The position numbers were made by a program, and so were the translations under genes. The notes under the pieces were generated by a model, which ran no database searches, was not told the origin of the DNA, and saw nothing but the letters and a program-made list of their open reading frames with translations. Positions 7,757 to 29,373 of a DNA stretch of 64,000 bases are shown here, in pieces. Position 1 is the stretch's first letter, and every line of letters starts with the position of its first letter. This stretch comes from Sulfurimonas hydrogeniphila (lineage in GTDB: Bacteria > Campylobacterota > Campylobacteria > Campylobacterales > Sulfurimonadaceae), in assembly GCF_009068765.1 (NCBI RefSeq), contig NZ_CP035534.1, forward strand, positions 2,170,001 to 2,234,000, given 5' to 3'.

Positions 7757-8458
7757 TTATACGTACAGATATTCTATCTGTGCCAAGGCATAACTTTCTA
7801 CAGTTCCAATATCCCTGTGATACACTCTGTTTTCATAAGTGTATATCTTTCCCATAAAATGAGGTAAAACATCCAGACTAAAATCTATATTTTTTTTATG
7901 CAAACTTTTCAGAAAAGGAAACAGCGTCGGCTCACAGATATAGACAGCACCGTTTGCCAAATTTGAAGGCGGGTTTTCTACTTTTTCAAAAAAATGCTGT
8001 ACTATTTCTTTTTCATCCAATTCAACTATTCCACAAGATGACGGTGTATCTGTCTTAAATGTCATCATTGTGATCTCACAGATTTTCGGACGCGTTTTGT
8101 GTGCGTTGACAAATGCCTGAAAATCACAAAATGACAAGTTGTCGGCATGAATCAAGAAGAATGCCTCCTTATCAAAAAAATTTTGATTTTGCAGCAGTGT
8201 TCCTCCTGTATTAAGCAGTTGCTCTTCATGCACAAGCGTTATTTGTTCACAAAAAGAACTCTTCTCCTTCCATGCCAACACCTGTTCGGCAAGATAGGAT
8301 GTATTTATCAAAAACTCATCAACTCCTGCTGCACTCAGATTCTCAAGCCAGTAATCCAGCAAAGGCTTCCCGTGAACAGGCACCAGACACTTTGGAATAA
8401 AATCCGTAACGGGACGCAGCCGTGTACCCAGTCCGCCTGCAAGCAACAAGGCCTTCAT
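7757..8458 (-). CDS. Sugar-phosphate nucleotidyltransferase (HddC/RmlA-like)
   Basis: A 233-residue NTP_transferase protein. LLAGGLGTRLRP (4-15) is the nucleotide and Mg site signature, PKCLVPV follows, and a HADN stretch provides the metal aspartate. It joins an NTP to a sugar 1-phosphate. The best-known short relatives make GDP-heptose (HddC) or GDP/dTDP sugars. It abuts the cytidylyltransferase-kinase fusion gene directly, so the pair probably act in sequence. With a GmhA-like isomerase and a transketolase in the same island, an activated heptose is a reasonable but unproven product. Confidence 0.8.
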   Translation of the reverse strand: MKALLLAGGLGTRLRPVTDFIPKCLVPVHGKPLLDYWLENLSAAGVDEFLINTSYLAEQVLAWKEKSSFCEQITLVHEEQLLNTGGTLLQNQNFFDKEAFFLIHADNLSFCDFQAFVNAHKTRPKICEITMMTFKTDTPSSCGIVELDEKEIVQHFFEKVENPPSNLANGAVYICEPTLFPFLKSLHKKNIDFSLDVLPHFMGKIYTYENRVYHRDIGTVESYALAQIEYLYV

Positions 8459-9877
8459 TTACTCCAGCTCCTGTAAAAGTTCATCTTTTTGAATGGGAAT
8501 ATTGCCGACCCGGCTTACCTGAATCGCAGAGGCCAAAGAACCCAAATAGGCACTCTGCCAGATATTTGCACCCACAGCCAGTGCCATCGCGCTACATGTA
8601 AGCAGAGAATCTCCTGCTCCGCTGACATCACGGACTGCATTTCCCAAAGCGTTTATGTTATCTGTCAATAAATCATCTTCCCAATTGTTATATATCAAAA
8701 TACCCTCTGCTCCGAGTGTTGTAAAAACATATTTTGCCTGTGATTTTTTTACCAGTTTGTCCGAAAGCACCACCAAACCCGATTCAAAATCATTTAAAGA
8801 GAGTCTGATTTCTCTCTCAGTAGGCGTGACCAGCGTCATATTGTTAAATTTTGAAATATCCCCGACCTGTGAGGAGCTTTGAGAATCAGCGGCCATTAAT
8901 ATACCTGCCTCACACCCCATTGTTGTAATGGTATCAATAATCTTTTTACTCAGCACACCGTAACTGAAATCTGAAAAAATTATCAAATCCGTACGCTCTA
9001 TATTTTCTTTGACGTCTTGAAGAATTTTTTCTTCTATATCTGTTGCAATACTGTGCTGCTTGAGATGATTGACACGCAGCAGTGTTTTTGTATTGGCACG
9101 AAAGCGCTGTTTGAGCGTAGTGGGTCTTGTCGTGTCTTTATAAAGTTTCGCGTCAATATCAAGTTTTTTAAGCCCCTCATCCAAATAGTTAAAATTTTCA
9201 TCATCTCCGACAACAGAAATAAACTTTACGTTTGCACCGAGCGTTTTTGCATGGCTGGCAACGATGGCGGCGCCTCCTATGAATTTATCACTTACTAAAG
9301 GCGTTACGACGATAGTCGGATCTTCCTGACTCATCCCCAAAGGCTCACAAATAATGTACTCATCTACAATGGAATCACCTATGACTAAAACATTGATTTG
9401 TGAAAATTTTTCTATAATGGCATTTAAATGCGCCATATCAAAAGAGTGGCGTTGCAAATACGAACTGTTATGTTCTACCGTATAATTGAGTGCCGCAAAT
9501 TCCTGTTTTAATAAATCTATAGAAGAAAAACCTATCTCTCCGGAGCTAAAAAGAAGTTTGCCGCCATAAGCACTGATAACCTCCAGTTCCGCATTTGATT
9601 TATTTGCGAACTCTTTTCCCTTGACAACAATCTCAGGTCTGTTTTGCTTAATGTACTCAAGTGCCGGAACATCCAAAATAAACGCTTCATCCACATAGCT
9701 CGTAGCATTGATGGACTCCAGTCTGATATCTTGCGAAATGCCTTTTTGGCTGATTTTATCACTGTTGACACCGACAACAAGGTAATCCCCGCTCTCTTTG
9801 GCAAATTTCAACAATCTCAAATGCCCGGGATGCAGCACATTGAAGTCACCCGATACAAATACTTTTTTCATAGCCAT
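8459..9877 (-). CDS. Cytidylyltransferase-like / PfkB sugar kinase fusion, reversed HldE order
   Basis: Two catalytic domains in 472 residues. Residues 1 to about 135 form a nucleotidyltransferase with the HPGH motif (16-19) of the HldE/glycerol-3-P cytidylyltransferase family. The rest is a PfkB/ribokinase-type kinase, with FIGGAA for substrate binding and the GAGD anion-hole motif near the C-terminus. Ordinary HldE, which makes ADP-heptose, has the kinase first and the transferase second, so this order is reversed. The start could also be the ATG two codons later (9871). Neither start has a strong ribosome site, but the gene follows the radical SAM gene by 1 bp and is probably coupled. Confidence 0.8.
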   Translation of the reverse strand: MAMKKVFVSGDFNVLHPGHLRLLKFAKESGDYLVVGVNSDKISQKGISQDIRLESINATSYVDEAFILDVPALEYIKQNRPEIVVKGKEFANKSNAELEVISAYGGKLLFSSGEIGFSSIDLLKQEFAALNYTVEHNSSYLQRHSFDMAHLNAIIEKFSQINVLVIGDSIVDEYIICEPLGMSQEDPTIVVTPLVSDKFIGGAAIVASHAKTLGANVKFISVVGDDENFNYLDEGLKKLDIDAKLYKDTTRPTTLKQRFRANTKTLLRVNHLKQHSIATDIEEKILQDVKENIERTDLIIFSDFSYGVLSKKIIDTITTMGCEAGILMAADSQSSSQVGDISKFNNMTLVTPTEREIRLSLNDFESGLVVLSDKLVKKSQAKYVFTTLGAEGILIYNNWEDDLLTDNINALGNAVRDVSGAGDSLLTCSAMALAVGANIWQSAYLGSLASAIQVSRVGNIPIQKDELLQELE

Positions 9878-9878
9878 A

Positions 9879-10988
9879 CTAAATAAAATTGAGATGCTGC
9901 GGCAAATCGCCGCTTGGACGTGTCAGCGCATGTTGTCCTTTTTTATAGGCATCAAGCACTTCATTTGTCTTATCCTGCAAACATAATGTTTCACACATCG
10001 AGCAGGCATCAAATTTATCCGATGCCAAGAAATCCATCACTTCCCAGTATCTCTCGCTTTTGAGTATATCTTTAAAACGCACTCCCGGTTCTGTTATATT
10101 GGCTATATGGTACTGCTTGTATTTTTCATTGAAAAAGCTCCCGCACGGGGCTATCAGACCTGTTCCGGACATTTGCAGGTGAAAAGGCGTACCGTGGCAT
10201 CTGCTGTAGTTCCTTTTGCCCTTGGAAAGAATCTTGGACCATTTAGCTTTGACAAGATATTCCTCGTCACTGTAGCTCTCTGCTTCTTTTAAAAGGTCAA
10301 CCAGGTCATCATATTTGTCATAATCAACCCCCAGGGTTCCCTCTTCATCGTCACTGCAATGTTTAATGACCAGATAATCAGGCCGCAACTCTTTACCGAG
10401 TTTTGCCAGAGGAATAATCTCATCCGCATCCTGCGGCATCAAGACCATCTGCATCCCGATAGTCACATCAAGATTCATCTCTTTTTTTATCTGCATCGCC
10501 ATTTTGATATTTTCGCAGGTTTCATAATACTTCTCAACCGGAACACCCATTATCTCGCTGTACCTTTGTGGTGTTCCCGCACTGAAGTTAAAGCGCAAAT
10601 ATGTCAAAGCCGGCAAAATTTTTCTTAGCACATCTTCTGTAAGTGTATTTCCGTGTGTGGCTATAGCCATATCCAAACCGACTTTTTTGCCGTAGACAAT
10701 GACATCTTCATATATCGGGTTTGCGGTACTTTCCCCGTCGCTCACAAGGCTGATGGCTTTGACTCCCACTTCGGCACAATCATCCAAAAAGTTTTTCATA
10801 ATTTCAAAAGTAATTTTATGCGGTTTGTTTCTTTGCATATTTGCATAACAAAAGACACAGTTGTACTGACAAGCCTGTGTCAGTGCCATATCAATGGTGA
10901 TAGGGACAATCCTCTCCCCTCTCTTCCATTGCTCCAAGCGCTCTTGATGCCATAGTATTTTAGATCCATCTAGTATTAATTCTGACAT
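9879..10988 (-). CDS. Radical SAM/SPASM protein 1 (sugar island)
   Basis: A 369-residue radical SAM enzyme. C40, C44 and C47 (CQYNCVFC) bind the 4Fe-4S cluster that cleaves S-adenosylmethionine, and a C-terminal Cys set (RCHGTPF, PCGSF, ACSMCETLC) looks like a SPASM or twitch auxiliary-cluster domain. It is clearly a paralogue of the protein at 13273-14367: both share a Gly-x-Gln-Met-x-Leu-x-Pro motif, DYLVIK, a CHxTPF motif and an identical NFI terminus. The substrate is unknown. Placement between a split transketolase and the kinase fusion suggests a sugar or a sugar nucleotide. Confidence 0.82.
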   Translation of the reverse strand: MSELILDGSKILWHQERLEQWKRGERIVPITIDMALTQACQYNCVFCYANMQRNKPHKITFEIMKNFLDDCAEVGVKAISLVSDGESTANPIYEDVIVYGKKVGLDMAIATHGNTLTEDVLRKILPALTYLRFNFSAGTPQRYSEIMGVPVEKYYETCENIKMAMQIKKEMNLDVTIGMQMVLMPQDADEIIPLAKLGKELRPDYLVIKHCSDDEEGTLGVDYDKYDDLVDLLKEAESYSDEEYLVKAKWSKILSKGKRNYSRCHGTPFHLQMSGTGLIAPCGSFFNEKYKQYHIANITEPGVRFKDILKSERYWEVMDFLASDKFDACSMCETLCLQDKTNEVLDAYKKGQHALTRPSGDLPQHLNFI

Positions 10989-10999
10989 TTATTCTCCAT

Positions 11000-11488
11000 T
11001 TATAAGCATCTCAAATAGGTAGGCCCGTCATAGGCAAACATATTTTTTATATCTTCTTGCAGCGTCTCTTGTGTCGGTGCAAATATTTTAAAATTTTTAA
11101 ATATTTTCATCATGGCTATGTCATCATCATCCATACAATGACTTCTGCCCAAACTAGAAAAATAATTATCGGCACCTACACCGATAAGTTTAACATTCAT
11201 TTTATGTTCATTTAAATCATAACGAATCTGCTCATACGCACGCATTACCAAAAAAGGCACCTGAGAATAAACAAGCGGCTTCAATCCTGCCAAATACATT
11301 CCCGCACTCATGCTCATGGTTGCCTGCTCGCATATACCTGTATTAAAAGTTCGCTCTTTATGATTGTCAAAAAAATCATCCAACACGGCAAATCCCATAT
11401 CGCCGACCAGCAGGACCATCTTTTCATCATTTTTAAAATAACTATATATTTCTGCCATAACTTCTTTTTTGCCGACCAGTTTACTCAT
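11000..11488 (-). CDS. Transketolase, C-terminal half (pyrimidine-binding subunit)
   Basis: About 162 residues matching the pyrimidine (Pyr) domain of transketolases. The NTGICEQATMSMSAG segment holds the Glu that activates thiamine diphosphate. The usual third, C-terminal transketolase domain is missing, so the protein is short. The first in-frame codons are ambiguous. ATG at 11491 or 11488 fits best because it overlaps the stop of the upstream N-terminal half, giving coupled translation. Together the two subunits would form one active enzyme, as known for split transketolases in polysaccharide and secondary-metabolite clusters. Confidence 0.82.
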   Translation of the reverse strand: MSKLVGKKEVMAEIYSYFKNDEKMVLLVGDMGFAVLDDFFDNHKERTFNTGICEQATMSMSAGMYLAGLKPLVYSQVPFLVMRAYEQIRYDLNEHKMNVKLIGVGADNYFSSLGRSHCMDDDDIAMMKIFKNFKIFAPTQETLQEDIKNMFAYDGPTYLRCL

Positions 11489-12272
11489 CATCACACCCCA
11501 AAACATATCCGTCTTGCGTCGGGCATCGAAAATGATGGGCTATAGAATTTTCACAAACCGCTACGCCCTTGCCCTTGAGCGTATCACAAAATACAATGGA
11601 GAAATTGTCATTTTTTGTATGAAAAAAGTTCTTTAAGCTTACATGTAAGCTGTTTTCATTATGCCCGTCTATTTTTGAGAAATTATCCGTATAACTGTGC
11701 AAGACTTTTGCCAGTCTCTCATTATCAAGCCCCACATCTGCCACTCTGTCCATCGCCTGCAGTTCGTTTGCATCGACAATCAAAAGAAGATTGTCAAGTT
11801 GAAATCTGTATGCAAGCGCCAAGGCTTCAAAATTGCTTCCCTCCTGCATCTCTCCGTCTCCGACGATACAGACAACCTTGTTTGTTTTGTTTTGCATTTT
11901 AAAAGCCTGTGCCATCCCAACGGCTATAGGCAGTCCGTGTCCGAGTGAGCCGGTAGAGGCTTCTATCATATAGTCCAAATTTTGTGTCAAACATCCTTTA
12001 ATGGATGCTCCCCTGTAAAAATTATCCAGTTCTTCTTTTGGCAAAAAACCAAGCTCGTTTAAGATTACATAGTACGCATAGGCACCATGCCCTTTGGAAA
12101 ATATGAGCCTGTCACGGCTTTCATCCTGAGCATTTTTTTTGTTATAGTGCAAAAAATCTCTAAAGAGGACACTCAGCATTTCGACGGTACTCAGTGAGGG
12201 TGCCAAGTGTCCTGCTCCTGTTTTGCAGGAGAGTTCTATTGTTTTTTTTCTTATCTCTTTTGCATCTAACAA
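11481..12272 (-). CDS. Transketolase, N-terminal half (diphosphate-binding subunit)
   Basis: About 263 residues of the PP domain. GDGEMQEGSNFEA and a downstream DAN form the thiamine-diphosphate/Mg motif, and the early AGHLAPSLS segment supplies the phosphate-contact His. The frame extends upstream to a GTG at 12302, but TTG at 12272 is the better start: GGGGGAG lies 8 bp before it and it falls 2 bp after the stop of the epimerase gene. Transketolases move two-carbon units and can make sedoheptulose 7-phosphate. A dedicated copy here suggests supply of, or branching on, the island's special sugar. One TTACATGTAA lies at 11639. Confidence 0.83.
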   Translation of the reverse strand: MLDAKEIRKKTIELSCKTGAGHLAPSLSTVEMLSVLFRDFLHYNKKNAQDESRDRLIFSKGHGAYAYYVILNELGFLPKEELDNFYRGASIKGCLTQNLDYMIEASTGSLGHGLPIAVGMAQAFKMQNKTNKVVCIVGDGEMQEGSNFEALALAYRFQLDNLLLIVDANELQAMDRVADVGLDNERLAKVLHSYTDNFSKIDGHNENSLHVSLKNFFHTKNDNFSIVFCDTLKGKGVAVCENSIAHHFRCPTQDGYVLGCDDE

Positions 12273-12274
12273 AA

Positions 12275-13264
12275 TTATTTCTCCCCCAGATACAAGAACC
12301 ACTCTTTAGTCGCTTCTTGAATGCTTTTTTCATCCCAAAGCGGAGCTTCCCGCCAAGAATCTATATTTTCAAGCATTATTTTCACGCCCTCTTCAAAGCT
12401 TATTTTTGGTTTCCAGCCTAGCATAGTTTTTATTTTTGAAATGTCCGCATAAGTGCTCTCAGGTTCTCCCGGTCTTTTTGGAATGTAGTGTTTTTCTCCA
12501 CCTAAAAGCTCGGCAAGGTAATTAATGCTGTAAGTATTGTCACTGCCTACATTAAAAATCTCTTGACTTATAGGGCTTTTTGCTGCCATGAAACATGCAT
12601 CGACTATATCACTCACATAGGTAAAATCTCTTGTCTGCTCTCCGTCACCCACTATTGTCAGTGGTTTGTTATTTAACAATTGTGCCAAGAACACCCCAAA
12701 TACAGCACCGTATGTCCCTCCTGTTCTATGACGCACTCCATAGACATTAAAGAACCTCATCGACACTACGGGCATATTATATAACTGCCCCCAGTGCATG
12801 ACATACTGTTCGGCTACTGTTTTTGTGTGGGCATACGGGTATTCCGGTTTTATGGGAGTATCTTCGGGTGTCGGATAGACATCTGGGATACCATAACATG
12901 AACTCGAAGCTGCATAAACAAACTTTTTAAGATTTTTACTTTTTTTCGCCGCTTCAAGCACATTGATTGTACCGTCTACATTGGCTCTGTGGTATTTTAC
13001 AGGGTTGTTAATTGATGGGACGATATCCGCCAAAGCTGCATAATGAAACACATAATCCGCATCTTCAAAATAGCTGTCCAATTCAGTTTCATAATCGCCA
13101 ATATCAACTTGGAAAAATTCTATCTTCCCCTTGTGATGTGCAATATTCTCAAGCCGTCCGTTTGCCAGATTGTCCAACACCGTTACATGGAAACCCTCTT
13201 TGACCAACAAATCAACCATATGCGAGCCGATAAACCCGGCTCCACCCGTTACTACTGCTTTCAT
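12275..13264 (-). CDS. NAD-dependent sugar-nucleotide epimerase/dehydratase
   Basis: An extended SDR of 329 residues. GGAGFIG (7-13) binds NAD, and the catalytic YAHTK (Tyr and Lys) follows an SSCYG active-site serine region. The RFFNVYG segment and the GDGEQTRDF motif are typical of UDP-glucose/GlcNAc 4-epimerases and related dehydratases. It would change the configuration of an activated sugar. The gene ends 2 bp before the transketolase N-half, whose ribosome site lies in its last codons, and starts 8 bp after radical SAM protein 2, so it belongs to the same transcript. The exact substrate cannot be told. Confidence 0.85.
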   Translation of the reverse strand: MKAVVTGGAGFIGSHMVDLLVKEGFHVTVLDNLANGRLENIAHHKGKIEFFQVDIGDYETELDSYFEDADYVFHYAALADIVPSINNPVKYHRANVDGTINVLEAAKKSKNLKKFVYAASSSCYGIPDVYPTPEDTPIKPEYPYAHTKTVAEQYVMHWGQLYNMPVVSMRFFNVYGVRHRTGGTYGAVFGVFLAQLLNNKPLTIVGDGEQTRDFTYVSDIVDACFMAAKSPISQEIFNVGSDNTYSINYLAELLGGEKHYIPKRPGEPESTYADISKIKTMLGWKPKISFEEGVKIMLENIDSWREAPLWDEKSIQEATKEWFLYLGEK

Positions 13265-13272
13265 ATCATCCC

Positions 13273-14367
13273 TTATATAAAATTATCATGCGCCTCTGGA
13301 TTTTTCAACCTGTCCAGATAGCGATTGACCTCATCCATTCTGCAGTTGACTCTGCAATTTTTAATATCCAACTCCTTTTGCACAAAGTTGTACGATTCTC
13401 TGCGTTTGTCACTTTCCCAAATTTCACTAAAGCTGTTGTCATAAATATTGCCGTAACAAAAGCGCTCATCCCCAAGGTAAGCACTGCAGCCAAAAACTTT
13501 TCCGTCAGCGGCAATGTATCCCCAAAAAAACGGAGTCGCGTGGCAGGTAGAGTAGGAATGCTCTTTTTTCACATATTTTTTCATCGTATTTGCACGAAAA
13601 ACTATATGAAAATTCTCATCATTAAAGCTTTTTAGTTCCTCTTCAACATCGAGCATTTGAGAGTAGTCTATGTCTTTGTATCTGTCTGTCTCACTGAAAT
13701 TATGTTGCGAATAGGGTTTTATCACCAAATAGTCAGCCCCGAGCTCTTTGACTTTTTGAGCTAAAATCACCGCTTCATCTCTGTTTTCGGGAAGCAGAAG
13801 CATCTGTACGCCAAGCGTACATGTAAGCTTGTTTTGTCTTCTGTACTCCAAAGCATACGCTAAATTATTCATGACCCGCTCAAAATCAAGCTCTTTTGTT
13901 TGATGAATTGCGGCGTAGCTTTGAGCCGTTCCCGCATTGAGGCTCACTTTTATCCAGGAACAGTTCTCAATGCAACGCTCAATGTTTTTTTTATTGAGCG
14001 GAACAAAGTTTGTTGTTATGGAGGTATCGATACCCACTTGTGAGCAGTGCTCTACAATGAGGTCTAAATCTTTAAACAGCAGAGGCTCGCCTTCTCCTGC
14101 AAACATCACACTTTTCACACCATGAGCTGCCATATCACTCAGGCTGTTTTTTAAAACTTCAAAATCTATGCCGATATTTTCATAGCCCATATAATCAAGC
14201 GCGCAAAATGTACACCGGTGATTGCATCCGCCATACGGTGACACTTCCACATACACAGGGTAGATTTTTTTGAGTCTCTCCCAGTTATCATCTGCTTCAA
14301 GCCATCTTGCAACCCGGACAGGATGTAAACTCATTTTATGGGAATCTATTGCAAATTTATCACTCAT
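13273..14367 (-). CDS. Radical SAM/SPASM protein 2 (sugar island)
   Basis: A 364-residue radical SAM enzyme with C48, C52 and C55 (CNHRCTFC) for the SAM-cleaving cluster and C-terminal cysteines (TCHATPF, GCSAY, NCRVNC) that resemble a SPASM domain. It is a paralogue of the protein at 9879-10988 and shares its ending, AHDNFI against QHLNFI, as well as the CHxTPF and DYLVIK blocks. Two such enzymes in one sugar operon imply two radical steps or a heteromeric enzyme. The substrate is not known. TACATGTA occurs at 13818. Confidence 0.82.
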   Translation of the reverse strand: MSDKFAIDSHKMSLHPVRVARWLEADDNWERLKKIYPVYVEVSPYGGCNHRCTFCALDYMGYENIGIDFEVLKNSLSDMAAHGVKSVMFAGEGEPLLFKDLDLIVEHCSQVGIDTSITTNFVPLNKKNIERCIENCSWIKVSLNAGTAQSYAAIHQTKELDFERVMNNLAYALEYRRQNKLTCTLGVQMLLLPENRDEAVILAQKVKELGADYLVIKPYSQHNFSETDRYKDIDYSQMLDVEEELKSFNDENFHIVFRANTMKKYVKKEHSYSTCHATPFFWGYIAADGKVFGCSAYLGDERFCYGNIYDNSFSEIWESDKRRESYNFVQKELDIKNCRVNCRMDEVNRYLDRLKNPEAHDNFI

Positions 14368-14380
14368 TTATAAAATCTTC

Positions 14381-15136
14381 TTATTTTACTATAAACCAAG
14401 GGTTTAGCAAATTCTTTTTATTATACACTAATGGTTGCATGTTTTCAAACTGATATGTCATTTTGCCGCTTTGTCTGACAATAGCATCAGCCGCCGCCGT
14501 ATCCCACTCCATAGTTGGTCCAAGCCTTGGATAAATATCTGCACTTCCATCAGCCACCATACAAAGTTTCAAAGAACTTCCCCTGTTTCTTTGCTCTTTT
14601 TTTTCTGCTGAAAGAGCATCTATAAATGCTTGTGTCTCTGGTGAGAGGTGTGATTTTGAAGCAACAATATGAAGTTCCTTTTGAGGATGGCTGTTTACAT
14701 GTAAAGGAAGTTTTTGTCCATTTTTAAACGCGCCCTTGCCTTTTTTTGCTTTGTACATTTCTTTTGTTGCCGGAGCATATACTACACCTAAAACCGGTGT
14801 GTCTTTATGAATAAGCGCTATGTTTACTGTGAACTCGCCATTGTGCTTTATAAACTCTTTTGTCCCGTCTAGAGGATCAATACACCAGTAATATTGCCAA
14901 TTTTTTCTTATTTCATAGACTACCTGCTTATTTTCTTCAGAGAGTATCGGTATATTCGGATACAGCTTTTGCAAAGCCAAACAGATAATTTCATTTGCTT
15001 TAGTATCTGCTTCCGTCAAAAAAGAATTATCATCTTTGTACTCTATCGTAAAATCTTTTTGATATATTTGCATAATGGCTTTGCCTGCCTCTTTTGCAAT
15101 CGTAGCAATTTGCTGTAGATTAATCTCTTCTAACAC
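14381..15136 (-). CDS. cysQ: 3'(2'),5'-bisphosphate nucleotidase CysQ
   Basis: An inositol-monophosphatase-fold enzyme of 251 residues that hydrolyses PAP to AMP. The metal-binding motifs SEENK, DPLDGTKEF and WDTAAAD are all present and in order. PAP is the by-product of sulfotransferases and inhibits them, so CysQ fits the nearby sulfotransferase (19267-20523) and the PAPS genes. It overlaps cysC by 7 bp, showing co-transcription. A second role in assimilatory sulfate reduction cannot be excluded. A TTACATGTAA copy lies at 14695, read as LHVN. Confidence 0.9.
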   Translation of the reverse strand: MLEEINLQQIATIAKEAGKAIMQIYQKDFTIEYKDDNSFLTEADTKANEIICLALQKLYPNIPILSEENKQVVYEIRKNWQYYWCIDPLDGTKEFIKHNGEFTVNIALIHKDTPVLGVVYAPATKEMYKAKKGKGAFKNGQKLPLHVNSHPQKELHIVASKSHLSPETQAFIDALSAEKKEQRNRGSSLKLCMVADGSADIYPRLGPTMEWDTAAADAIVRQSGKMTYQFENMQPLVYNKKNLLNPWFIVK

Positions 15137-15735
15137 TCTAAATATCCTCTTTTTTGTAAATATTGTATAATTATCTGGCTTGCTTCTTCTATGGTCATTT
15201 TCTCTGTTTTTATATGTATCTCTGCTTTATTTGGTATTTCATACGGTGAAGATATACCCGTAAAATTTGGAATTTCTCCCTGCATTGCCTTTATATACAA
15301 GCCTTTTGGATCTCTGCGTTGACATATTTCAAGGGAAGTATCTACAAATATTTCTATAAATTCATCTTTTGCTACAAGTGTTCTGACTGTGTCTCTTTCT
15401 TTTTGAAAAGGAGATATAAAAGCACTCAAAACTATAAGACCACTTTCAACAAACAATTTTGCGACTTCACCGATTCTTCTAATATTTTCAATCCTATCTT
15501 CATCAGAAAAACCAAGTCCTTTGTTAAGCCCTAAACGAATATTATCACCGTCTAAAAGGTAACTATGTTTTTGTAATTGATTGAGTTTCACTTCTACTGC
15601 ATTTGCCAATGTAGATTTACCGCTGCCGCTTAATCCCGTAAACCATAACACACAGGGTTTTTGTCCCTTTATCGCTGCTCTTTTTTGCTTTGATAGGTGA
15701 TTCTCATGGAAAATTATATTTTTATTGTTTGTCAT
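15130..15735 (-). CDS. cysC: Adenylylsulfate kinase
   Basis: CysC phosphorylates APS at the 3' position to give PAPS, the universal sulfate donor. The 201-residue protein has the P-loop GLSGSGKST, the LDGDNIR motif and the KGLY segment of APS kinases. It is a separate protein here, whereas many NodQ/CysNC proteins carry it as a C-terminal fusion, and the CysN next door lacks that domain. It lies 21 bp after cysN and overlaps cysQ. Since PAPS is needed for transfer of sulfate, the gene links sulfate activation to the sulfotransferase upstream. Confidence 0.92.
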   Translation of the reverse strand: MTNNKNIIFHENHLSKQKRAAIKGQKPCVLWFTGLSGSGKSTLANAVEVKLNQLQKHSYLLDGDNIRLGLNKGLGFSDEDRIENIRRIGEVAKLFVESGLIVLSAFISPFQKERDTVRTLVAKDEFIEIFVDTSLEICQRRDPKGLYIKAMQGEIPNFTGISSPYEIPNKAEIHIKTEKMTIEEASQIIIQYLQKRGYLEC

Positions 15736-15756
15736 GTTTATTTATCTCTTGGTATA

Positions 15757-17196
15757 TTAAATTAGTTTACAGTTCCACTCAGGAAAGTTTTCTCTTATAT
15801 AATAGTTAAGTGCTTTTTCTGCATCGGTATAATTTCTTGTTTGTGTTTCTTTTCTTTCATTTTCTCTTGCTGCCACATCAACTATCATACCCACACCCAC
15901 CGTATTATTTGTGACTCTGTCAACGATGATAAAACTTCCCGTTCGGCGATTTTCTTTGTATTTATCTGCCGCTATCGGACGGGTAAGTGTTATTTTGCAA
16001 GAGGCTATGTCGTTGAGTTGTAACTCTTTTACCTGTTCTCTTTTATATGTATTCACATCTATTTTATAGTTAATATGCTCCACTACGCCGCTAATAACGG
16101 AAACAGCACGTTTAATGTCATACGTCTTAGCTATCTGCATCGGTGTTTCATTCATCCATACAAGCATAACTTTTAACGTATTTGAAACCCTTGGCATTTT
16201 TTTGGTATGTACGAGTATGTCTCCACGACTGATGTCAATTTCATCTTCTGTCGTAATCGTTACCGCCATTGGGGCATAGACCTCATTACACGTAAGCTGT
16301 TTATGGTTTTCTTTGATATCTCCGGCATTAATAATACTTTTGACTTTCGTCGTCTTTCCCGAAGGAAGCACAGTTATTTCATCACCTACTTTGACGCTAC
16401 CACTGGCAACAGTTCCACAAAAACCTCTAAAGTCTAAATTTGGGCGATTGACATACTGCACCGGAAATCTAAATTTTTCTTCTGTCTCTTTTTTAGATAT
16501 ATCCATAGCGTCTAGCAGTTCTAAAAGAGGTTCTCCTGCATACCAGGGAGTATTATCACTTTGGTTTACTACATTATCACCTTCTAATGCACTCAAAGGG
16601 ATGTAGTATCTGTTTTTAATTCCCAATTCGTCTGCTAAAGTTTCATAAGAGGCTTGTATCTCATCAAACACTTCTTTGGAGAAATTTACTAAATCCATCT
16701 TATTGATAGCGACTATAACATGTTCTATCCCTAAAAGATTAACTATAAAACTGTGTCTTCTTGTTTGTGTAAGAATACCTTTGCGGGCATCTATAAGTAT
16801 TATAGCTACATCCGCAGTTGAGGCACCTGTCACCATATTTCTAGTGTACTGTTCATGCCCCGGCGCATCGGCAATAATGAATTTTCTTTTTTCGGTTGCA
16901 AAAAACCTATAGGCTACATCTATGGTAATTCCCTGTTCTCGCTCACTTTGCAAACCATCAACAAGCAAAGCCATATCCAACTTCTCACCCGTCGTGCCGT
17001 ATTTTTTACTCTCATTTTGTGCAGTAGAGAGTTGATCGTCAAATATCATCTTGCTATCATATAAAAGACGACCAATGAGAGTGGATTTCCCATCATCTAC
17101 ACTTCCGCAAGTTAAAAAACGCAATATATCTTTGTTTTCATACTCTTTGAGGTAGGCTTCTATATCTAAAGAGATTTTTTCATTATTTATACTCAT
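15757..17196 (-). CDS. cysN: Sulfate adenylyltransferase, GTPase subunit
   Basis: CysN couples GTP hydrolysis to formation of APS by CysD. The 479-residue protein has the G-domain motifs GSVDDGKST (G1), DAPGHEQY (G3) and NKMD (G4), followed by the beta-barrel domains of EF-Tu-like factors. There is no C-terminal APS-kinase domain. Its ATG overlaps the stop of cysD by one base, giving tight coupling. Cluster context with cysC, cysQ and a sulfotransferase points to sulfation rather than only sulfate assimilation. Confidence 0.93.
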   Translation of the reverse strand: MSINNEKISLDIEAYLKEYENKDILRFLTCGSVDDGKSTLIGRLLYDSKMIFDDQLSTAQNESKKYGTTGEKLDMALLVDGLQSEREQGITIDVAYRFFATEKRKFIIADAPGHEQYTRNMVTGASTADVAIILIDARKGILTQTRRHSFIVNLLGIEHVIVAINKMDLVNFSKEVFDEIQASYETLADELGIKNRYYIPLSALEGDNVVNQSDNTPWYAGEPLLELLDAMDISKKETEEKFRFPVQYVNRPNLDFRGFCGTVASGSVKVGDEITVLPSGKTTKVKSIINAGDIKENHKQLTCNEVYAPMAVTITTEDEIDISRGDILVHTKKMPRVSNTLKVMLVWMNETPMQIAKTYDIKRAVSVISGVVEHINYKIDVNTYKREQVKELQLNDIASCKITLTRPIAADKYKENRRTGSFIIVDRVTNNTVGVGMIVDVAARENERKETQTRNYTDAEKALNYYIRENFPEWNCKLI

Positions 17197-18107
17197 TAAA
17201 AATATCCCTCTATCTTTTTACGCTCCATAGCACCTTCACTATCTTTGTCTATCAACCGACCTTCTCGCTCACTTAAAGTTGAAAGAAGTATTTCACGAAT
17301 AATTTCAGGCAGTGTTGTCGCAGTTGAATTAATAGCGCCGGTTAAAGGATAACATCCAAGCGTACGAAAACGCACCATCTCTGTTTTCGCTGTTTTTCTG
17401 AGTTGCTCCGGCATTCTTTCATCATCTACCATGATCTTTGTGCCTTCATACTCAACCACTTCTCTCTCTTTAGCAAAGTAAAGAGATGGAATAGGAATAC
17501 CTTCTAAATAGATATACTGCCATACATCAAGCTCTGTCCAATTACTTATAGGAAACACACGTACGGATTCCCCTTTTTCAATAGCGGTGTTAAAAATATT
17601 CCAAAGTTCCGGTCTTTGTTTTTTTGGATCCCACCTGTGATATTTATCACGAAAGGAGAATATGCGCTCTTTGGCACGAGATTTCTCTTCATCTCTTCTT
17701 GCTCCACCGATAATAGCATCATAACCACCATTATTAAGAGCTTGTTTGAGTGCTTGAGTTTTCATAATGTCGGTATGAAGTTTACTTCCATGTTCAAAGG
17801 GGCTTATATTCATGGCTATCCCTTCAGGGTTTGAGTGCACCACAAGGTCAAAGCCAAGCTCTTTTGCGCGCTTATCGCGAAACTCTATCATCTCAGCAAA
17901 TTTCCAAAGCGTATCTACATGTAAGAATGTAAAAGGCACTTTAGCCGGTGCAAATGCTTTTTGTGCCAAATGCAGCATAACGGAGCTGTCTTTGCCTACA
18001 CTGTACATCATTACAGGATTACAAAACTCAGCCGCAACCTCACGGAGAATATAAATTGATTCTGCTTCTAGTTGTTTTAAATGTATTAAGCTTTTTTTTA
18101 TTAACAT
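17196..18107 (-). CDS. cysD: Sulfate adenylyltransferase, catalytic subunit
   Basis: CysD forms adenylyl sulfate from ATP and sulfate. The 303-residue protein contains the PP-loop [12 protein letters not shown], the HVDTLWKF segment and the [12 protein letters not shown] block of this family. It is the first gene of the PAPS set, starting 28 bp after the glycosyltransferase gene at 18136. Codon and base composition are closer to the downstream genes than to the AT-rich genes upstream. TACATGTA occurs at 17916. Confidence 0.93.
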
Positions 18108-18135
18108 TTTAAATATCCATGTAATTATATAAGTT

Positions 18136-19260
18136 TTATTTTTCTATATCAAGACCAAGTAATTCTACAAAATTACAATTATTAAAACTAAATACCTTTC
18201 TAAAGTTTTTAATATTTTCTATAAAAACCTCATATTGATCTTTATGCATTTGAAGAAAAGAAGCAAAATCTTTAAAATTATCATTAGAAAAGACTATACC
18301 AATATTATTATCTCTAACTATTTTTGCCATAGATACGAACTTCTCATGTACTAATATTGGCAATGCTCCTTCCAAATAAAATGCAAATTTACTAACAACA
18401 GCATATTTATATAACATTTCATTTTTAGAGTCAATAAACAATTCAAAAAAACCAAAATGATAACCATGCAATTTTTTAGAATCTAAATCTTTACCTTCAA
18501 GTATCGCAAAATTATTATTGAATCTATCCTCATAAAAAAAGTCTATAAATAATTCTCTTTTAGTTTTCATCTCATCAAGATTCTTCTTTGGAATTAAAAA
18601 ACTTATTGTAATACTCTCAGATGTAAGTTTTTTAATACTATATATATGAGACTTATTTGGAAATATTTCACCTGGTAATACAGTTGAAGAAATTCTTCCT
18701 GCATATACTAAATTTAATTTATTACTAAATTTAGTATTTTTCTCATTAAAGTTACTGTATAAAGTCAATTCGGGTAAAAATATAAATTTATCTACATTTA
18801 CTTTATATATTTTTGACCATATTACTGCTTGTTCTTCTGTATAATGTGATAATATTTTTTTCCCATATCTAAAAATATATTCTATTGCTTTAAAGTCATC
18901 ATCATTTCCAAATAAAAATTTATATTCTTCTCTTGTACTAAAATTCCAATCTTTAAGGGTTATTATTGCATTTGGAAAATTTTTTAATATCTCAGCACTA
19001 AAAGCATAGGCATGCATCCAACCTCTAGATATTAAAATAGTATAGTCAATTTTACTTATTATTGATAATATTTCATCTTTTGTATCAACTTGAAGAACCT
19101 TATCAAAATACTTATGAGTTGTCATATAAGAAGGTTCTTTTAAGATAATTAAAATAATTTTCCACTTATACTTTATAAATAAAAACTGAACTAATCGATC
19201 AATGAAAAAATCTTGCTTCTTTAAAATCCCATTTGGTGGAACTATAATTAAAGTTTTCAA
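18136..19260 (-). CDS. Putative GT-B glycosyltransferase
   Basis: A 374-residue protein that opens with the hydrophobic strand [10 protein letters not shown] and has a later LVYAGRISS strand followed by a C-terminal half ending in a glycan-transfer-like [12 protein letters not shown] segment. This layout resembles GT-B glycosyltransferases, in which the second domain holds the nucleotide sugar, but no strong catalytic motif is seen. The gene is markedly AT-rich, like the next two upstream, and lies 6 bp after the sulfotransferase gene. It is probably cytoplasmic and acts on the island's glycan. The acceptor and donor are unknown. Confidence 0.55.
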
Positions 19261-19266
19261 AATATT

Positions 19267-20523
19267 TTACCTCTTAATAAGATGACAAACATCTAAAACC
19301 ACCACTCCACCGTGCAAACGCAACTTTTTATTTATTGTAACTTTACAGTTTTCTGAAGATTCTGTAATAATAATATAGTCATACTCAGACACCTTAGATA
19401 GTAATTTTTTAGGAGATAACACATGTTCTTTATTTATATTTTTAAAATTATTATCACAAATCATAGTAACATTTACATTATTTTTTAAATATCGTTTCAA
19501 GTAAGTTTTATAGTTATTATATCCATAAACAACGATATTGTAACCCTTCAAATATTCAACAAGATTTTTTATTGATTGGAACTTTGGAATTATCCTTTTA
19601 TACACTTCTAACTTTCGCTCAAAAATATTATGGAACTGCAGAGTATTATACTTTTTTTCTAAGCTGATTGAATACCCTAAATCTTGCAGAATATTTTTAT
19701 TTGTTTCAACAAAGTCTTTATAGAATTTATAAGAAATAAATTTGAACCACTCTTTAACTTTTTTTGATTCATTATAGTGCCGATAATATGCATGTCTGTG
19801 TATTGAGGTAGTTAATTCCTTATAAAAGATATTATCTATTATATTCTCTATTTTCTCATCATCAATATCTATTTCTAAATAAATAGAAAGTTTCTTTATC
19901 TCTTTTCGTGGATTAGCTAATAAACTTTCATACTGTATTCCATAAAATTCTTTTTTATATTTTAAAAATGCTTCCACATGCTTAGTCCAAGCTTCAATTG
20001 TCGCATATACCTTTTCTGGAGTCAAATATCTAAGCTCTTGGTATTTTAACTGACTTTTTAATTTTTTCATTAAAAAAAACACATAATCTAAATTTTCAAT
20101 AAATTTCATTTTTGAGTTTAAAACATCTAAACCATATCTGTATACATAAATTTTTTTATTAATCTTTTTTAATATCTTATTAGACATAATTTCTATAGGT
20201 GAAGCATGTCCAAAATAAATAACTTTTTTAGATAAATCTATCCCATTTGTAATATCCAGTAAGAAATGTTTATATATTGTGCCATTTAAGTTATGAAAAT
20301 TTGTAGCTACTAATATTTCTTTATTATTCACACTATTTATACCACCAAAAGAAACTCTAGTATCTTTGATGTTTAATTTTTTTAAAAAAGCTTCCAATAG
20401 CTCTTCATTTAATGGGGGATCCATTTTATCTATAGATAATAATTTATAAATAATATTAGTAACCAATACTGTTCCAGACTTTGGCATAGATGATATTAGA
20501 ATATTATGATTATACATTTTCAT
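19267..20523 (-). CDS. PAPS-dependent sulfotransferase with C-terminal Rossmann-like domain
   Basis: The N-terminal 5'-phosphosulfate loop SMPKSGT (12-18) and the later YVYRYGLDVLNS segment match the PAPS-binding 5'-PSB and 3'-PB motifs of sulfotransferases. The last 100 or so residues form a separate alpha/beta module (VVYGYNN ... YDYIIITES) like the Rossmann appendages found on capsule enzymes. It would move sulfate from PAPS to a sugar hydroxyl in the cytoplasm. The PAPS genes cysD, cysN, cysC and cysQ lie just downstream on the same strand. Its start overlaps the upstream glycosyltransferase by 14 bp. Strong AT bias suggests recent acquisition. Confidence 0.75.
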   Translation of the reverse strand: MKMYNHNILISSMPKSGTVLVTNIIYKLLSIDKMDPPLNEELLEAFLKKLNIKDTRVSFGGINSVNNKEILVATNFHNLNGTIYKHFLLDITNGIDLSKKVIYFGHASPIEIMSNKILKKINKKIYVYRYGLDVLNSKMKFIENLDYVFFLMKKLKSQLKYQELRYLTPEKVYATIEAWTKHVEAFLKYKKEFYGIQYESLLANPRKEIKKLSIYLEIDIDDEKIENIIDNIFYKELTTSIHRHAYYRHYNESKKVKEWFKFISYKFYKDFVETNKNILQDLGYSISLEKKYNTLQFHNIFERKLEVYKRIIPKFQSIKNLVEYLKGYNIVVYGYNNYKTYLKRYLKNNVNVTMICDNNFKNINKEHVLSPKKLLSKVSEYDYIIITESSENCKVTINKKLRLHGGVVVLDVCHLIKR

Positions 20524-21910
20524 TGTATTTCCTCGTATTTATTATATTCACTATTCTATTTAAAAACTTATCGTAAGTATATTGTTTTACAAAAAACTCT
20601 AAATCCAACTTTGGAACTTTATCACTATTTAATATTTTTTCAAGTTCATTAACTGTTTGAAAATATATAACAGGTATATCTTTTGTATTTTCTTTTGTTC
20701 TATATCTATTATCATAAGCCAATGGAATCGCTCCACTAGCAGTGCCTTCAAAAATTCTTTGCTGTAATAGATATGAAGTTGGAATAAAAACATATGTAGC
20801 CCTATTATAAACAATTGATATATCTTTTCCATAATTCAATATGCCTTTATAATATGGTTTTACTTCATCATACTCATCCCAGCCCTCTCCATAAATCTCT
20901 ATCTTATATTTTGTCTTTATTGTGCATAGTCTTAATATTAAAATATCTCTTATGACATACCCAACAATAGAATTTATATTTTTCATATCTTCATTATATT
21001 CTTGAGAAATTTCATAAAGACAATCATATTTAAAAACTCCCTCCTTATCATATAAGGCTATAATTCTCTTTGCAATTTGTACAAATTTTTTATTCTTTAT
21101 TCTATCTTTATACGAAGATCCAATAAAAACTACTTTTTGTTCTCGTACTATGTTATCTCGAATTTTATATACAGTTTTATCTATACAAAATGGTTGTAAT
21201 TTTGATTCTATTCCTTTCGATAATAATTTTTTACCAATATCATCAGTCAGATGAAAAACAATATCTCGTTTTCTTGCAATGTATTTTTGAGAATCTTGTA
21301 AAAAAGGCATCATATCTTGAAACCAGACAATATTAAAAACTTCATCACTAAGCATAATGTTATCCATGTGATTTATATTTATTTTTACATGTGGCTTAGC
21401 AAAAAACATATTTTTTAAACACTTTTCATCTTCTATGCCATATTGCATATCTAATACTACATAAAAACCTTTTCTTTCTAATTCCTTTGCAAGTGCTTTC
21501 ATAATATGCTGCATAACCTTTGTTGAATTATGTGCTCTTAAATAAAATCTCCAAGGTTCTGAGAAATTTAATCTTAAATTTTTCATACTATTAAAATAAG
21601 CAAGATTTAGTTCATACCTATATACTTTTGCTTGTTCTAATAAAGAAAAAAAATTTGTTTCTATTTCATTTTTAACCTCTTCTGATAATTCAAGACCAGA
21701 GAAATCAATTTGTGTTGGCAATCTATATATACCCTGAGCCAAGTTTTCTAGAAAATCTTCAAATGGTAAATGAATAAAATTAACAAAGTTTGATTCAATT
21801 TTTTTACCAGCATAATAACACAACTGAAGTTTATATTTATGATCTTTATTCTGTAATGAAGCAACTCGTAATGCTTCATTTGCGTCTAAAAAGTAGGTGT
21901 CTTTAAACAT
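20510..21910 (-). CDS. Glycosyltransferase, CgeB-like
   Basis: A 466-residue protein. The C-terminal half has IYGEGWDEY, a NRATYVFIPTSY-like segment and RIFEGTASGAIPLAYDN, which match the donor-binding domain of CgeB/DUF3880-type glycosyltransferases (compare RxFEalAcGa). The N-terminal half is diverged. It begins the AT-rich minus-strand block, with 67 bp to the divergent GmhA-like gene, so the promoter is probably in that gap. It overlaps the sulfotransferase gene, and the two likely modify the same glycan. Confidence 0.7.
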   Translation of the reverse strand: MFKDTYFLDANEALRVASLQNKDHKYKLQLCYYAGKKIESNFVNFIHLPFEDFLENLAQGIYRLPTQIDFSGLELSEEVKNEIETNFFSLLEQAKVYRYELNLAYFNSMKNLRLNFSEPWRFYLRAHNSTKVMQHIMKALAKELERKGFYVVLDMQYGIEDEKCLKNMFFAKPHVKININHMDNIMLSDEVFNIVWFQDMMPFLQDSQKYIARKRDIVFHLTDDIGKKLLSKGIESKLQPFCIDKTVYKIRDNIVREQKVVFIGSSYKDRIKNKKFVQIAKRIIALYDKEGVFKYDCLYEISQEYNEDMKNINSIVGYVIRDILILRLCTIKTKYKIEIYGEGWDEYDEVKPYYKGILNYGKDISIVYNRATYVFIPTSYLLQQRIFEGTASGAIPLAYDNRYRTKENTKDIPVIYFQTVNELEKILNSDKVPKLDLEFFVKQYTYDKFLNRIVNIINTRKYNENV

Positions 21911-21977: not shown

Positions 21978-22538
21978 ATGAAAAACTTTGCAAAGAAGTA
22001 CATAAAAAAACTTATTGCTACACTTCAAAAAAGTAATTTAGATATAATTGCAAAAATTATAGAACTCTTAGACAACACTTCTGGAAAAATATTTATTATT
22101 GGAAATGGTGGCAGTGCAGCTACTGCTTCACATATGGTAAATGATTTAGGAGTAGGACTCAAAAGAAGAAATATAAAAAGTTTTGATGTAGAAAGTCTCA
22201 GTGATAATACTCCTGTTTGTACAGCACTTGCCAATGATATTGGGTATAAAAATATATTTTACATGCAACTCAAAGATAGAATAAAAAAAGAAGATATCCT
22301 CATTGCCATTTCCTGTAGCGGCAACTCAAAAAACATAACAAAAGCTGTCAAGTATGCAAAAAAAGAGGGTGCTACTATTATTGGGCTCACAGGTTTTGAT
22401 GGCGGAAAATTAAAAAAACTCTCAGACATCAATTTCCATGTAGCAACAAAGAAAGGAGCATATGGCATTGTGGAAGATATGCACAGTATTATAAACCATA
22501 TAATCTATAGCTATTATATTGACTTAGAAAGTAAATAA
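21978..22538 (+). CDS. SIS-domain phosphoheptose isomerase-like protein (GmhA-like)
   Basis: A 186-residue SIS protein with GNGGSAATASHMVNDL (42-57), close to the GmhA signature, SCSGNS for phosphate binding, and a C-terminal VEDMHSIINHII that fits the conserved Glu/His metal site. GmhA converts sedoheptulose 7-phosphate to D-glycero-manno-heptose 7-phosphate, the entry to activated heptoses. It is the only plus-strand gene in the island and overlaps the end of legF by 25 bp. A transketolase (source of sedoheptulose 7-P), a kinase fusion and a nucleotidyltransferase occur in the same island, so a heptose path is plausible. Confidence 0.78.
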   Translation: MKNFAKKYIKKLIATLQKSNLDIIAKIIELLDNTSGKIFIIGNGGSAATASHMVNDLGVGLKRRNIKSFDVESLSDNTPVCTALANDIGYKNIFYMQLKDRIKKEDILIAISCSGNSKNITKAVKYAKKEGATIIGLTGFDGGKLKKLSDINFHVATKKGAYGIVEDMHSIINHIIYSYYIDLESK

Positions 22539-23206
22539 TTGGCTATTTCAAGATCTAATTTCGTGTCGATATCAATTGATTTTTTTTGATCCATCACATA
22601 AGCATAAATATTATCTTTTAAAAAAAAACTTTTTTTTTCTAAAAGTTTCGCGACTTTTATAATATAAATTGAGCCGTTTAGCCTATAATATGTTTCTAAA
22701 TCCTGACTTCTTTTATTCAAAATTTCTTTATGTAAAAAAGTCGCCATACTTTTATCTTTTGGCAGAGTATTAGACCAAAGTGGTGAGTGTTCCATTTCAC
22801 ATACACTTATAACTGCATCTGCATTTTTAGTATGCAAGAACTCTATTGCTTTGTCGATATCTTCACTTTTTCTCAAAGGGCTTGTTGGTTGCAACAAAAT
22901 AATATATGTATATTGTTTTTCAAAATTTTTTATCAGATGTTCAACAACCTCAAAAGTTGTAGCTGTATCAGTAGCGAGTCTTACAGGGCGTTTCATGATT
23001 GAAGCATTTTGTTCTTTCGCAATATTAAGAACCTCATCATCATCACTTGAAACAACAACTTCGTCAATATATTTGCTTTGTTTGGCAGCTTCTATACTCC
23101 ACGAAATTAATGGTTTACCTGCCAAATCCAGAACGTTTTTACGAGGTAACCTCTTGGAACCGCCTCTTGCAGGAATTATGGCTAAAAAAGTTTTATCATA
23201 TAACAT
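22514..23206 (-). CDS. legF: CMP-legionaminic acid synthetase (acylneuraminate cytidylyltransferase)
   Basis: The last step of the pathway: CTP plus the nonulosonic acid gives the CMP-sugar. The 230-residue protein has IPARGGSKRLPRKN near its N-terminus, the defining motif of NeuA/PseF/LegF, and LLQPTSPLR further on. LegF rather than NeuA or PseF is chosen because of its neighbours (PtmE-like, NeuC-like and NeuB-like proteins and a dehydratase/aminotransferase pair). It overlaps ptmE by one base and is the last gene of the operon. Confidence 0.88.
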   Translation of the reverse strand: MLYDKTFLAIIPARGGSKRLPRKNVLDLAGKPLISWSIEAAKQSKYIDEVVVSSDDDEVLNIAKEQNASIMKRPVRLATDTATTFEVVEHLIKNFEKQYTYIILLQPTSPLRKSEDIDKAIEFLHTKNADAVISVCEMEHSPLWSNTLPKDKSMATFLHKEILNKRSQDLETYYRLNGSIYIIKVAKLLEKKSFFLKDNIYAYVMDQKKSIDIDTKLDLEIANYLLSKSI

Positions 23207-29299: not shown

Positions 29300-29373
29300 A
29301 CGTATCAATTAGCAACTTTCATACCATTAATTTTGGTATATTTTATGCTTGCAATACTTATGAAAGGATATTT

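Follow-up and report, generated by a model that had tools for sequence, protein, structure and literature searches.

A sugar-gene cassette with two radical SAM proteins and a split transketolase

We analyzed a 64,000-nucleotide stretch of DNA from Sulfurimonas hydrogeniphila (hereafter the window; contig NZ_CP035534.1, positions 2,170,001 to 2,234,000), which is part of a complete 2.34-Mb genome. Our subject is a set of seven minus-strand genes at 7757-14367 of the window. They encode two radical S-adenosylmethionine (SAM) proteins, rSAM-A and rSAM-B, the two subunits of a split transketolase (TK), a short-chain dehydrogenase/reductase (SDR), a nucleotidyltransferase-kinase fusion (FUS) and an NTP_transferase (Table 1). 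We find that this cassette recurs across bacterial phyla and that its thiamine diphosphate (ThDP) enzyme has been exchanged repeatedly for one of another type. We suggest that it makes an activated sugar, possibly a branched one.

All seven genes lie where an initial annotation of the sequence had placed them, and each domain is backed by Pfam. The annotation described them as one operon; its genes stand but its extent does not, as upstream genes and a divergent GmhA-like isomerase had been overlooked. The run as a whole has 14 co-directional genes between 21910 and 7757, separated by -28 to +28 bases, and the seven form its downstream half. Its order is GT-like protein, sulfotransferase, no-Pfam protein, CysD, CysN, CysC, CysQ, rSAM-A, SDR, TK-PP, TK-PYR, rSAM-B, FUS and NTP_transferase. 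The GmhA-like gene lies 67 bases from the start of this run. The reported overlaps between genes are present as called, but the two larger ones (28 and 26 bases) are due to upstream start choices: homologues of the two overlapping genes begin ~10 and 4-6 codons later, where the window has a TTG and an ATG. Promoter-like sites (79, versus 62 in shuffled sequence) and terminator-like sites (12 versus 7) are only in modest excess.

Table 1. Genes of the cassette and its surroundings in the window.
Feature	Coordinates	Strand	Size (aa)	Domains and remarks
NTP_transferase (sugar-1-phosphate nucleotidylyltransferase; HddC/MurU/RmlA-like)	7757..8458	-	233	PF00483 (1.5e-35)
FUS: N-terminal HPGH nucleotidyltransferase and C-terminal PfkB kinase	8459..9877	-	472	PF01467 + PF00294
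rSAM-B, putative four-Cys twitch-type site	9879..10988	-	369	PF04055
Split transketolase PYR subunit (TK-PYR)	11000..11506	-	168	PF02779; likely start ATG near 11488-11491
Split transketolase PP (ThDP-binding) subunit (TK-PP)	11481..12302	-		PF00456; likely start TTG a few bases past the SDR stop
SDR, nucleoside diphosphate (NDP)-sugar epimerase/oxidoreductase type	12275..13264	-	329	PF16363/PF01370
rSAM-A, putative four-Cys twitch-type site	13273..14367	-	364	PF04055 + PF13186
Sulfotransferase, no-Pfam protein, CysD, CysN, CysC, CysQ	14381..20523	-		Supply of 3'-phosphoadenosine 5'-phosphosulfate (PAPS)/sulfation; gaps -7 to +28 bases
Glycosyltransferase (GT)-like protein, first gene of the 14-gene run	20510..21910	-		PF13524 just under cutoff
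GmhA-like SIS isomerase, divergent from the run	21978..22538	+		TIGR00441 (5.9e-32)

The cassette recurs in several phyla

A scan of GTDB genomes with an rSAM-A alignment returned 454 relatives, the best 80 of which were kept for analysis. These span Campylobacterota, Gammaproteobacteria, Betaproteobacteria, Nitrospirota, Nitrospinota, Omnitrophota, Planctomycetota and others. All locus counts below rest on the 57 loci of at least 15 kb among these 80, in which genes were called by open reading frame and profile search; single loci are cited by number (L035 and so on). Alongside rSAM-A, a two-subunit ThDP enzyme is found in 52 of the long loci, an SDR in 44, FUS in 43, a GmhA-like gene in 39 and an NTP_transferase in 23. 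rSAM-A and the SDR are the most conserved members of the cassette.

Of 298 Campylobacterota genomes, 18 encode a strong relative of rSAM-A, accompanied almost without exception by a second radical SAM gene. A reciprocal search detected the short TK-PYR half (E < 1e-60) in eight of the 298 genomes, with rSAM-A within a few kilobases in all eight; at the same threshold, FUS was detected in these eight genomes and one more. This constant pairing, together with recurrence in other phyla, argues that the gene set is not a chance assembly. Two plasmid records, found independently, combine these genes in a like manner: one from Solidesulfovibrio with a split TK, a PfkB fusion, a SIS gene and several radical SAM genes, and one from Azospirillum with a PfkB fusion, a SIS gene, an E1 alpha/beta pair and rSAM-B.

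Several loci also carry additional genes. One Sulfurimonas relative has a YhcG/DUF1016 nuclease-family gene between rSAM-A and the SDR (L036, 10365-11024). A small family without a Pfam match (~200-360 aa, including the ~235-aa U235) is encoded between TK-PYR and rSAM-B or just upstream of rSAM-B (L037, 9421-10128; L038, 11509-12228; L068, 13415-14014; L035, 10882-11964). Long TPR proteins follow rSAM-A in L128 and L131; the one in L131 combines TPR repeats with a GT41 (OGT-like) glycosyltransferase and is a candidate protein glycosyltransferase.

The ThDP enzyme has been exchanged repeatedly

The ThDP enzymes of the 52 loci lie within ~10 kb of rSAM-A and are of two types that are never found together: 24 loci have a split TK and the other 28 have an E1 alpha/beta pair (PF00676; PF02779 + PF02780). 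Chance proximity to rSAM-A has a low probability, since the TK subunit has only two other matches in the S. hydrogeniphila genome. A maximum-likelihood tree of rSAM-A requires at least three changes of ThDP type if only supported branches are counted, and parsimony gives five. Two TK loci (L114 and L124) fall inside the E1 clade beside L129, and two E1 loci (L079 and L088) fall inside the TK clade; some of these branches are long and their positions unsure.

The genes around the exchanged enzyme have mostly stayed in place. L114, L124 and the E1 locus L129 share the order rSAM-A, SDR, GmhA and FUS, which is followed in L114 by a TK pair, another radical SAM gene and a methyltransferase, and in L129 by an E1 pair and rSAM-B. 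Across the swap, identity to the window copies is ~55-57% for the SDR and rSAM-A, 39% for rSAM-B, 36% for GmhA and 27% for FUS. On the tree, rSAM-A, the SDR, GmhA and the kinase fusion were mostly kept while the ThDP type switched. We read this arrangement as two putative modules, one that would make a common intermediate and another, the ThDP enzyme with the second radical SAM protein, that would decorate it; methyltransferase, B12-dependent radical SAM or reductase genes are optional members of the latter. The chemistry common to split TK and E1 is the transfer of a two-carbon carbanion to a carbonyl. No E2 component is annotated near the E1 pair of the Azospirillum locus.

The split transketolase has lost acceptor residues

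The genome also encodes a full-length transketolase and a DXS. The closest PDB entries to the PYR and PP halves of the cluster TK are 6yaj and 6yak, respectively, both of split TK. In alignments with these entries and with the full-length TK of this genome, the ThDP motif GDG...N, the active-site His and the PYR-domain Glu are all retained in the cluster TK. The acceptor stretch differs: it reads WTHDSIGVGEDGPTH in the genome's own TK and GADNYFSSLGRSH, GSGITYAPAGMTH or near variants in cluster TKs. In nearly all of the latter, H469 has become G or similar and D477 has become L, A or similar (yeast TK numbering), while the last His is kept. Furthermore, the PYR half in the window stops right after its PYR domain, and the C-terminal domain PF02780 is missing. 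By these features the cluster TK is not a housekeeping transketolase, and the lost residues fit a changed acceptor.

The initial annotation had offered two roles for the split TK, to supply sedoheptulose 7-phosphate or to add a two-carbon branch. We considered the former first and set it aside as unlikely, because the TK is exchanged for E1 and has lost acceptor residues: an E1-type enzyme, which fills the slot in 28 of 52 loci, could not supply a sedoheptulose phosphate. The two-carbon branch is the role that we favor by inference, since TK and E1 enzymes alternate here and both have already been tied to the branching of keto-sugars.

Radical SAM proteins have predicted folds near that of DesII

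Both radical SAM proteins have a CxxxCxxC motif and four more conserved Cys in the pattern Cx12-13Gx4C...Cx3C, at positions 275, 294, 338 and 342 of rSAM-A and 264, 282, 332 and 336 of rSAM-B. All seven Cys are invariant in rSAM-A (58/58). Among 36 rSAM-B orthologues, C40x3C44x2C47 is present in every one and the four auxiliary Cys in 30; a subgroup that lacks the auxiliary Cys comes from Nitrospira, Gallionella and related genomes. Both families close with a conserved HxNFI-type tail. The label SPASM, which the initial annotation gave to both, says too much: Pfam SPASM scores above its cutoff for rSAM-A only, and where a full SPASM domain has ~seven Cys that bind two auxiliary clusters, each of these proteins has four. 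Their Cys pattern instead marks both as carrying a putative twitch-type, BtrN-like site. BtrN is an aminocyclitol dehydrogenase, and a twitch domain holds one auxiliary cluster ligated by four Cys (PMC9012708).

AlphaFold2 models of rSAM-A and rSAM-B (predicted local distance difference test scores of 88 and 89, respectively) have DesII as their top solved structure by Foldseek (3e-15 and 9e-16). By VIA-align, DesII is again the top structure and matches rSAM-A with Z 22.7 and root-mean-square deviation (rmsd) 4.2 over 319 residues, and rSAM-B with Z 25.1 and rmsd 3.9 over 341 residues; it is also the first solved structure for rSAM-A by profile. Within one Z unit, DesII is tied with SkfB for rSAM-A and with BlsE for rSAM-B (SkfB Z 21.8 against rSAM-A and 23.5 against rSAM-B). 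The substrates of DesII and BlsE are nucleotide sugars or a nucleoside uronic acid, and those of SkfB and SuiB are peptides. Neither protein belongs to the DesII equivalog TIGR04426 (47.6 bits for rSAM-A and 21.7 for rSAM-B, cutoff 450). DesII oxidizes thymidine diphosphate (TDP)-quinovose at C3 to a keto sugar (PMC11434129), which by analogy provides a precedent for rSAM-A as a putative ketone maker.

In enteric Helicobacter loci, including H. cinaedi, the second radical SAM paralogue contains a poly-G/C tract of 8-15 bases (L042, 9502; L046, 10584; L081, 11582; L085, 3800; L087, 11559; L043, 9914; L044, 10109; L045, 2046). The gene is split into two frames at this tract in several genomes and open in others, so the pathway looks phase-variable in these loci. 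Many rSAM-B proteins of E1-type loci (L089, L092, L122 and others) have an extra ~100-aa N-terminus with a recurring NRFG...IPDDAP...PGHKLRTSN motif.

Heptose-type genes and the SDR

FUS has its domains in the reverse order of HldE. Its kinase half is closest to the HldE kinase (TIGR02198, 209 bits, cutoff 345; ribokinase, 50), and its nucleotidyltransferase half is nearest to HldE domain II (TIGR02199, 63 bits, cutoff 181) and to glycerol-3-phosphate cytidylyltransferase. The NTP_transferase falls far under the cutoff of all NCBIfam equivalogs; copies that adjoin FUS in relatives are 60-72% identical to it. The isomerase scores 110.9 bits against the gmhA equivalog TIGR00441 (cutoff 209.45), and the cluster set keeps the SIS motifs GNGGS and SxSGxS/T and the Glu/His pair; it is therefore best described as GmhA-like rather than as a certified GmhA. 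Some relatives have a GmhB-like HAD gene of their own adjoining GmhA (L037, L062 and L066), and a GT9 heptosyltransferase-family gene lies directly upstream of E1 alpha in several E1 loci (L094 and L131). Our best guess is a heptose-type sugar.

A separate heptose cluster in the genome comprises HldE in the normal order, an adjoining SDR, a GmhB-size HAD protein and GmhA; the names HldD and GmhB for the second and third of these are our reading of the sequences and the gene order. With this canonical set elsewhere in the genome, we dropped a duplicate ADP-heptose pathway as an explanation. Although the genome thus has its own HldE, GmhB-type HAD and GmhA, a GmhA-like gene accompanies the cassette in 39/57 loci and FUS in 43/57, which we count in favor of the route proposed below.

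The SDR has the motifs SSSxYG and YxxxK, and its closest PDB entries are NDP-sugar 4-epimerases. The epimerase-type motif is present in 59 of 63 cluster SDRs. Against the HldD 6-epimerase family TIGR02197 the SDR scores 126, below the cutoff of 274.6. A 4,6-dehydratase role was rejected, as nearly all cluster SDRs have SSSxYG and no dehydratase motif.

Flagellar and surface-glycan setting

FliS and FliD lie just past one end of the region, and legionaminate-type genes (22514-29308), a Maf-type glycosyltransferase and flagellin lie past the other. Genes for flagellin, FliD or Maf are found in 17 of the 57 long loci, and attachment of the sugar to flagellin is plausible from this gene context. 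Legionaminate-type genes also occur in several relatives (LegI-type in 12/57), and in the Solidesulfovibrio locus Pse/NeuB-type genes are intermingled with those of the cassette. In several relatives, among them L057, L068 and L070, the gene immediately upstream of rSAM-A encodes a homologue of the GT-like protein, and the GT-like protein is a candidate transferase for the sugar.

The sulfate-activation and sulfotransferase genes of the run suggest that a flagellar or surface glycan of this strain may also be sulfated. CysC-type genes are found in a few relatives (L039, L063, L065, L071, L072 and L117). Campylobacter jejuni HS:19 has a similar group of cysDNC and a sulfotransferase (PMC8743553).

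A proposed route to a branched sugar

The product of the pathway is very probably some new activated sugar. This reading, which the initial annotation had called the simplest, is well supported: GmhA, an HldE-like kinase and nucleotidyltransferase, an NTP_transferase and an SDR co-occur, and the radical SAM folds are near those of DesII and BlsE. What we observed is which genes are present, how they are conserved and how the modules are exchanged, together with the ThDP and Fe-S residues and the predicted folds. From this we propose that the product is a C2-branched, heptose-derived nucleotide sugar for flagellin or another surface glycan, and we give this a probability of about 0.5; its substrates, step order, branching and acceptor glycan are what we infer.

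In the proposed route, the first module would start an NDP-heptose-type sugar with the GmhA-like isomerase, the kinase half of FUS and a GmhB-type phosphatase, in this strain probably the housekeeping enzyme, and the N-terminal half of FUS and/or the NTP_transferase would provide nucleotide activation. The SDR and rSAM-A would then jointly convert a carbinol carbon to a ketone; rSAM-A would do its part by abstracting a hydrogen and oxidizing the carbon, like DesII with TDP-quinovose. In the second module, the split TK would take a hydroxyacetyl unit from a ketose or hydroxy-keto acid and add it to this ketone, so that a C2-branched tertiary alcohol results; in E1 alpha/beta lineages, an acetyl group from pyruvate would be added instead. 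rSAM-B, which elsewhere occurs with methyltransferase or reductase genes, may tailor or trim the branch or the ring, and the finished sugar would be placed on flagellin or another surface glycan. More tentatively, the same logic might extend across phyla as a modular route in which a DesII-like radical SAM enzyme makes the ketone on a heptose-type NDP-sugar and an interchangeable ThDP enzyme adds the C2 branch, to yield a family of branched sugars of at least nine carbons for flagella and other surface glycans.

Several observations weigh against this proposal. According to a review of ThDP enzymes that form tertiary alcohols, the addition of a two-carbon unit to a keto-sugar by a split TK is a proposal that no in vitro work has yet demonstrated (PMC12247030). 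FUS lacks the HldE motifs DYxKG and DPKG, and its substrate may therefore not be heptose 7-phosphate; moreover, some loci (L094, L110, L113, L120, L123 and L131) have the ThDP enzyme and rSAM-A without nearby FUS/GmhA. The rSAM-B proteins of L106, L108, L117, L119, L129 and L131 have lost all four auxiliary Cys and kept the radical SAM motif, so the auxiliary cluster cannot be essential in every rSAM-B. The peptide maturases SkfB and SuiB, which act on ribosomally synthesized and post-translationally modified peptides (RiPPs), are ~1-2 Z units from DesII, such that the fold alone leaves the substrate class unfixed. Finally, the SDR alone could make the ketone, with rSAM-A doing another job.

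This last point can be developed into a variant of the proposal that we think improbable, in which the SDR makes a 4-keto sugar, the TK branches it and both radical SAM proteins come in afterwards to epimerize, deoxygenate or modify C-C bonds. The 4-dehydrogenation of GDP-heptose reported in Campylobacter capsule heptose synthesis is a precedent for an SDR as ketone maker, and the cluster SDR has the epimerase/oxidase motif rather than that of a 4,6-dehydratase. It is also as conserved as rSAM-A, with 57% identity to the window copy even in E1 loci, but L081, L087, L110, L113, L120 and L131 have the ThDP enzyme and rSAM-A without a related SDR nearby. Another alternative is an unbranched higher sugar. 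For this the split TK would lengthen a sugar phosphate, and the resulting heptulose or octulose phosphate would be isomerized by GmhA, activated by FUS and the NTP_transferase, and epimerized or deoxygenated by the SDR and the two radical SAM proteins. The lincosamide octose pathway follows such a logic, and GmhA, the HldE-like kinase/nucleotidyltransferase and the NTP_transferase would form a continuous route from sugar phosphate to NDP-sugar. Yet an E1 pair occupies the TK slot in 28 loci, the type has been swapped several times, and E1 acting on pyruvate would presumably yield a 1-deoxyketose that GmhA could not isomerize; with the TK acceptor residues H469 and D477 also lost, we regard this route as unlikely.

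Two further readings would remove the separate nucleotide sugar or the sugar substrate itself. The ThDP and radical SAM enzymes might serve to build or alter a substituent or a nonulosonate, such as a polyhydroxyacyl group or a C-branch on legionaminate. The adjoining legionaminate-type genes here and in several relatives, the loci without FUS/GmhA and the Pse/NeuB-type genes of the Solidesulfovibrio locus are consistent with this, but LegI-type genes are present in only 12 of the 57 loci, against 43 for FUS, 44 for the SDR and 39 for GmhA, and we consider it doubtful. Most improbable of all is that the radical SAM proteins act on a peptide or protein, in RiPP-like fashion or on flagellin residues, with the sugar genes as mere neighbors. 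The folds of SkfB and SuiB are indeed close to both models; however, we saw neither a precursor peptide nor a leader-binding domain, the radical SAM genes sit within a sugar-gene order in many phyla, and the nucleotide-sugar enzymes DesII and BlsE are among the top structural matches.

Comparison with known systems

The statement of the initial annotation that no standard route uses this combination of enzymes holds as far as we have checked. We found no description of the gene set in the literature, which is weak evidence, as most subscription journals are outside our coverage. Each enzyme type is already known; what is new to us is that they are combined, that the combination has spread among flagellar and surface-glycan loci, and that the ThDP enzyme is exchanged. 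If the proposed route is correct, Methylomonas, Pseudoalteromonas and Aquitalea would offer, in cultivable bacteria, surface-glycan cases of split-TK branching, so far proposed only for antibiotics. The carbon-carbon chemistry of split-TK/ThDP enzymes would be coupled to the radical SAM oxidation of a nucleotide sugar, and the flagellin glycans of several phyla may carry undescribed sugars. The ThDP swap predicts a paired difference in product, a hydroxyacetyl versus an acetyl branch.

DesII, a TDP-sugar deaminase/dehydrogenase of the TDP-desosamine pathway, is the best or tied-best structure for both radical SAM models and acts on a nucleotide sugar. It shares 12-18% identity with the radical SAM proteins, and the operon has no aminotransferase.

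For miharamycin and amipurimycin, split-gene TKs have been proposed to transfer hydroxyacetyl to a keto-sugar, and 13 further putative branching split TKs all come from streptomycetes (PMC12247030). The likeness is that of a two-subunit TK beside sugar-oxidizing genes, drawn from descriptions, not from sequence comparison. Those products are nucleoside antibiotics, whereas here the setting is surface-glycan loci, the TK lacks the C-terminal domain and two radical SAM proteins are present. For the E1 type, feeding and knockout experiments tie alphaKADH2 pairs to the addition of an acetyl branch to keto-sugars (PMC12247030). The alphaKADH2 enzymes of aldgamycin, kibdelomycin and kosinostatin are two-subunit E1 enzymes like those in 28 of our loci; the window has the TK form.

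A ThDP enzyme that adds a carbon branch to a surface-glycan keto-sugar nucleotide is known in YerE, which acts in the synthesis of the O-antigen sugar yersiniose A (PMC12247030). YerE is a single-chain decarboxylase-family enzyme that uses a cytidine diphosphate (CDP)-3,6-dideoxy-4-keto sugar, unlike the two-subunit TK of the operon, and no YerE gene or related dehydratase was seen in this operon setting. The ADP- and GDP-heptose pathways (GmhA, HldE, GmhB and HldD; HddA and HddC) are matched by the GmhA-like isomerase, the HldE-like domains and the HddC-like transferase. The cassette differs from them in that the fusion is reversed, the HldE motifs are lost, there is no HldD equivalog, and a ThDP enzyme and radical SAM proteins have been added.

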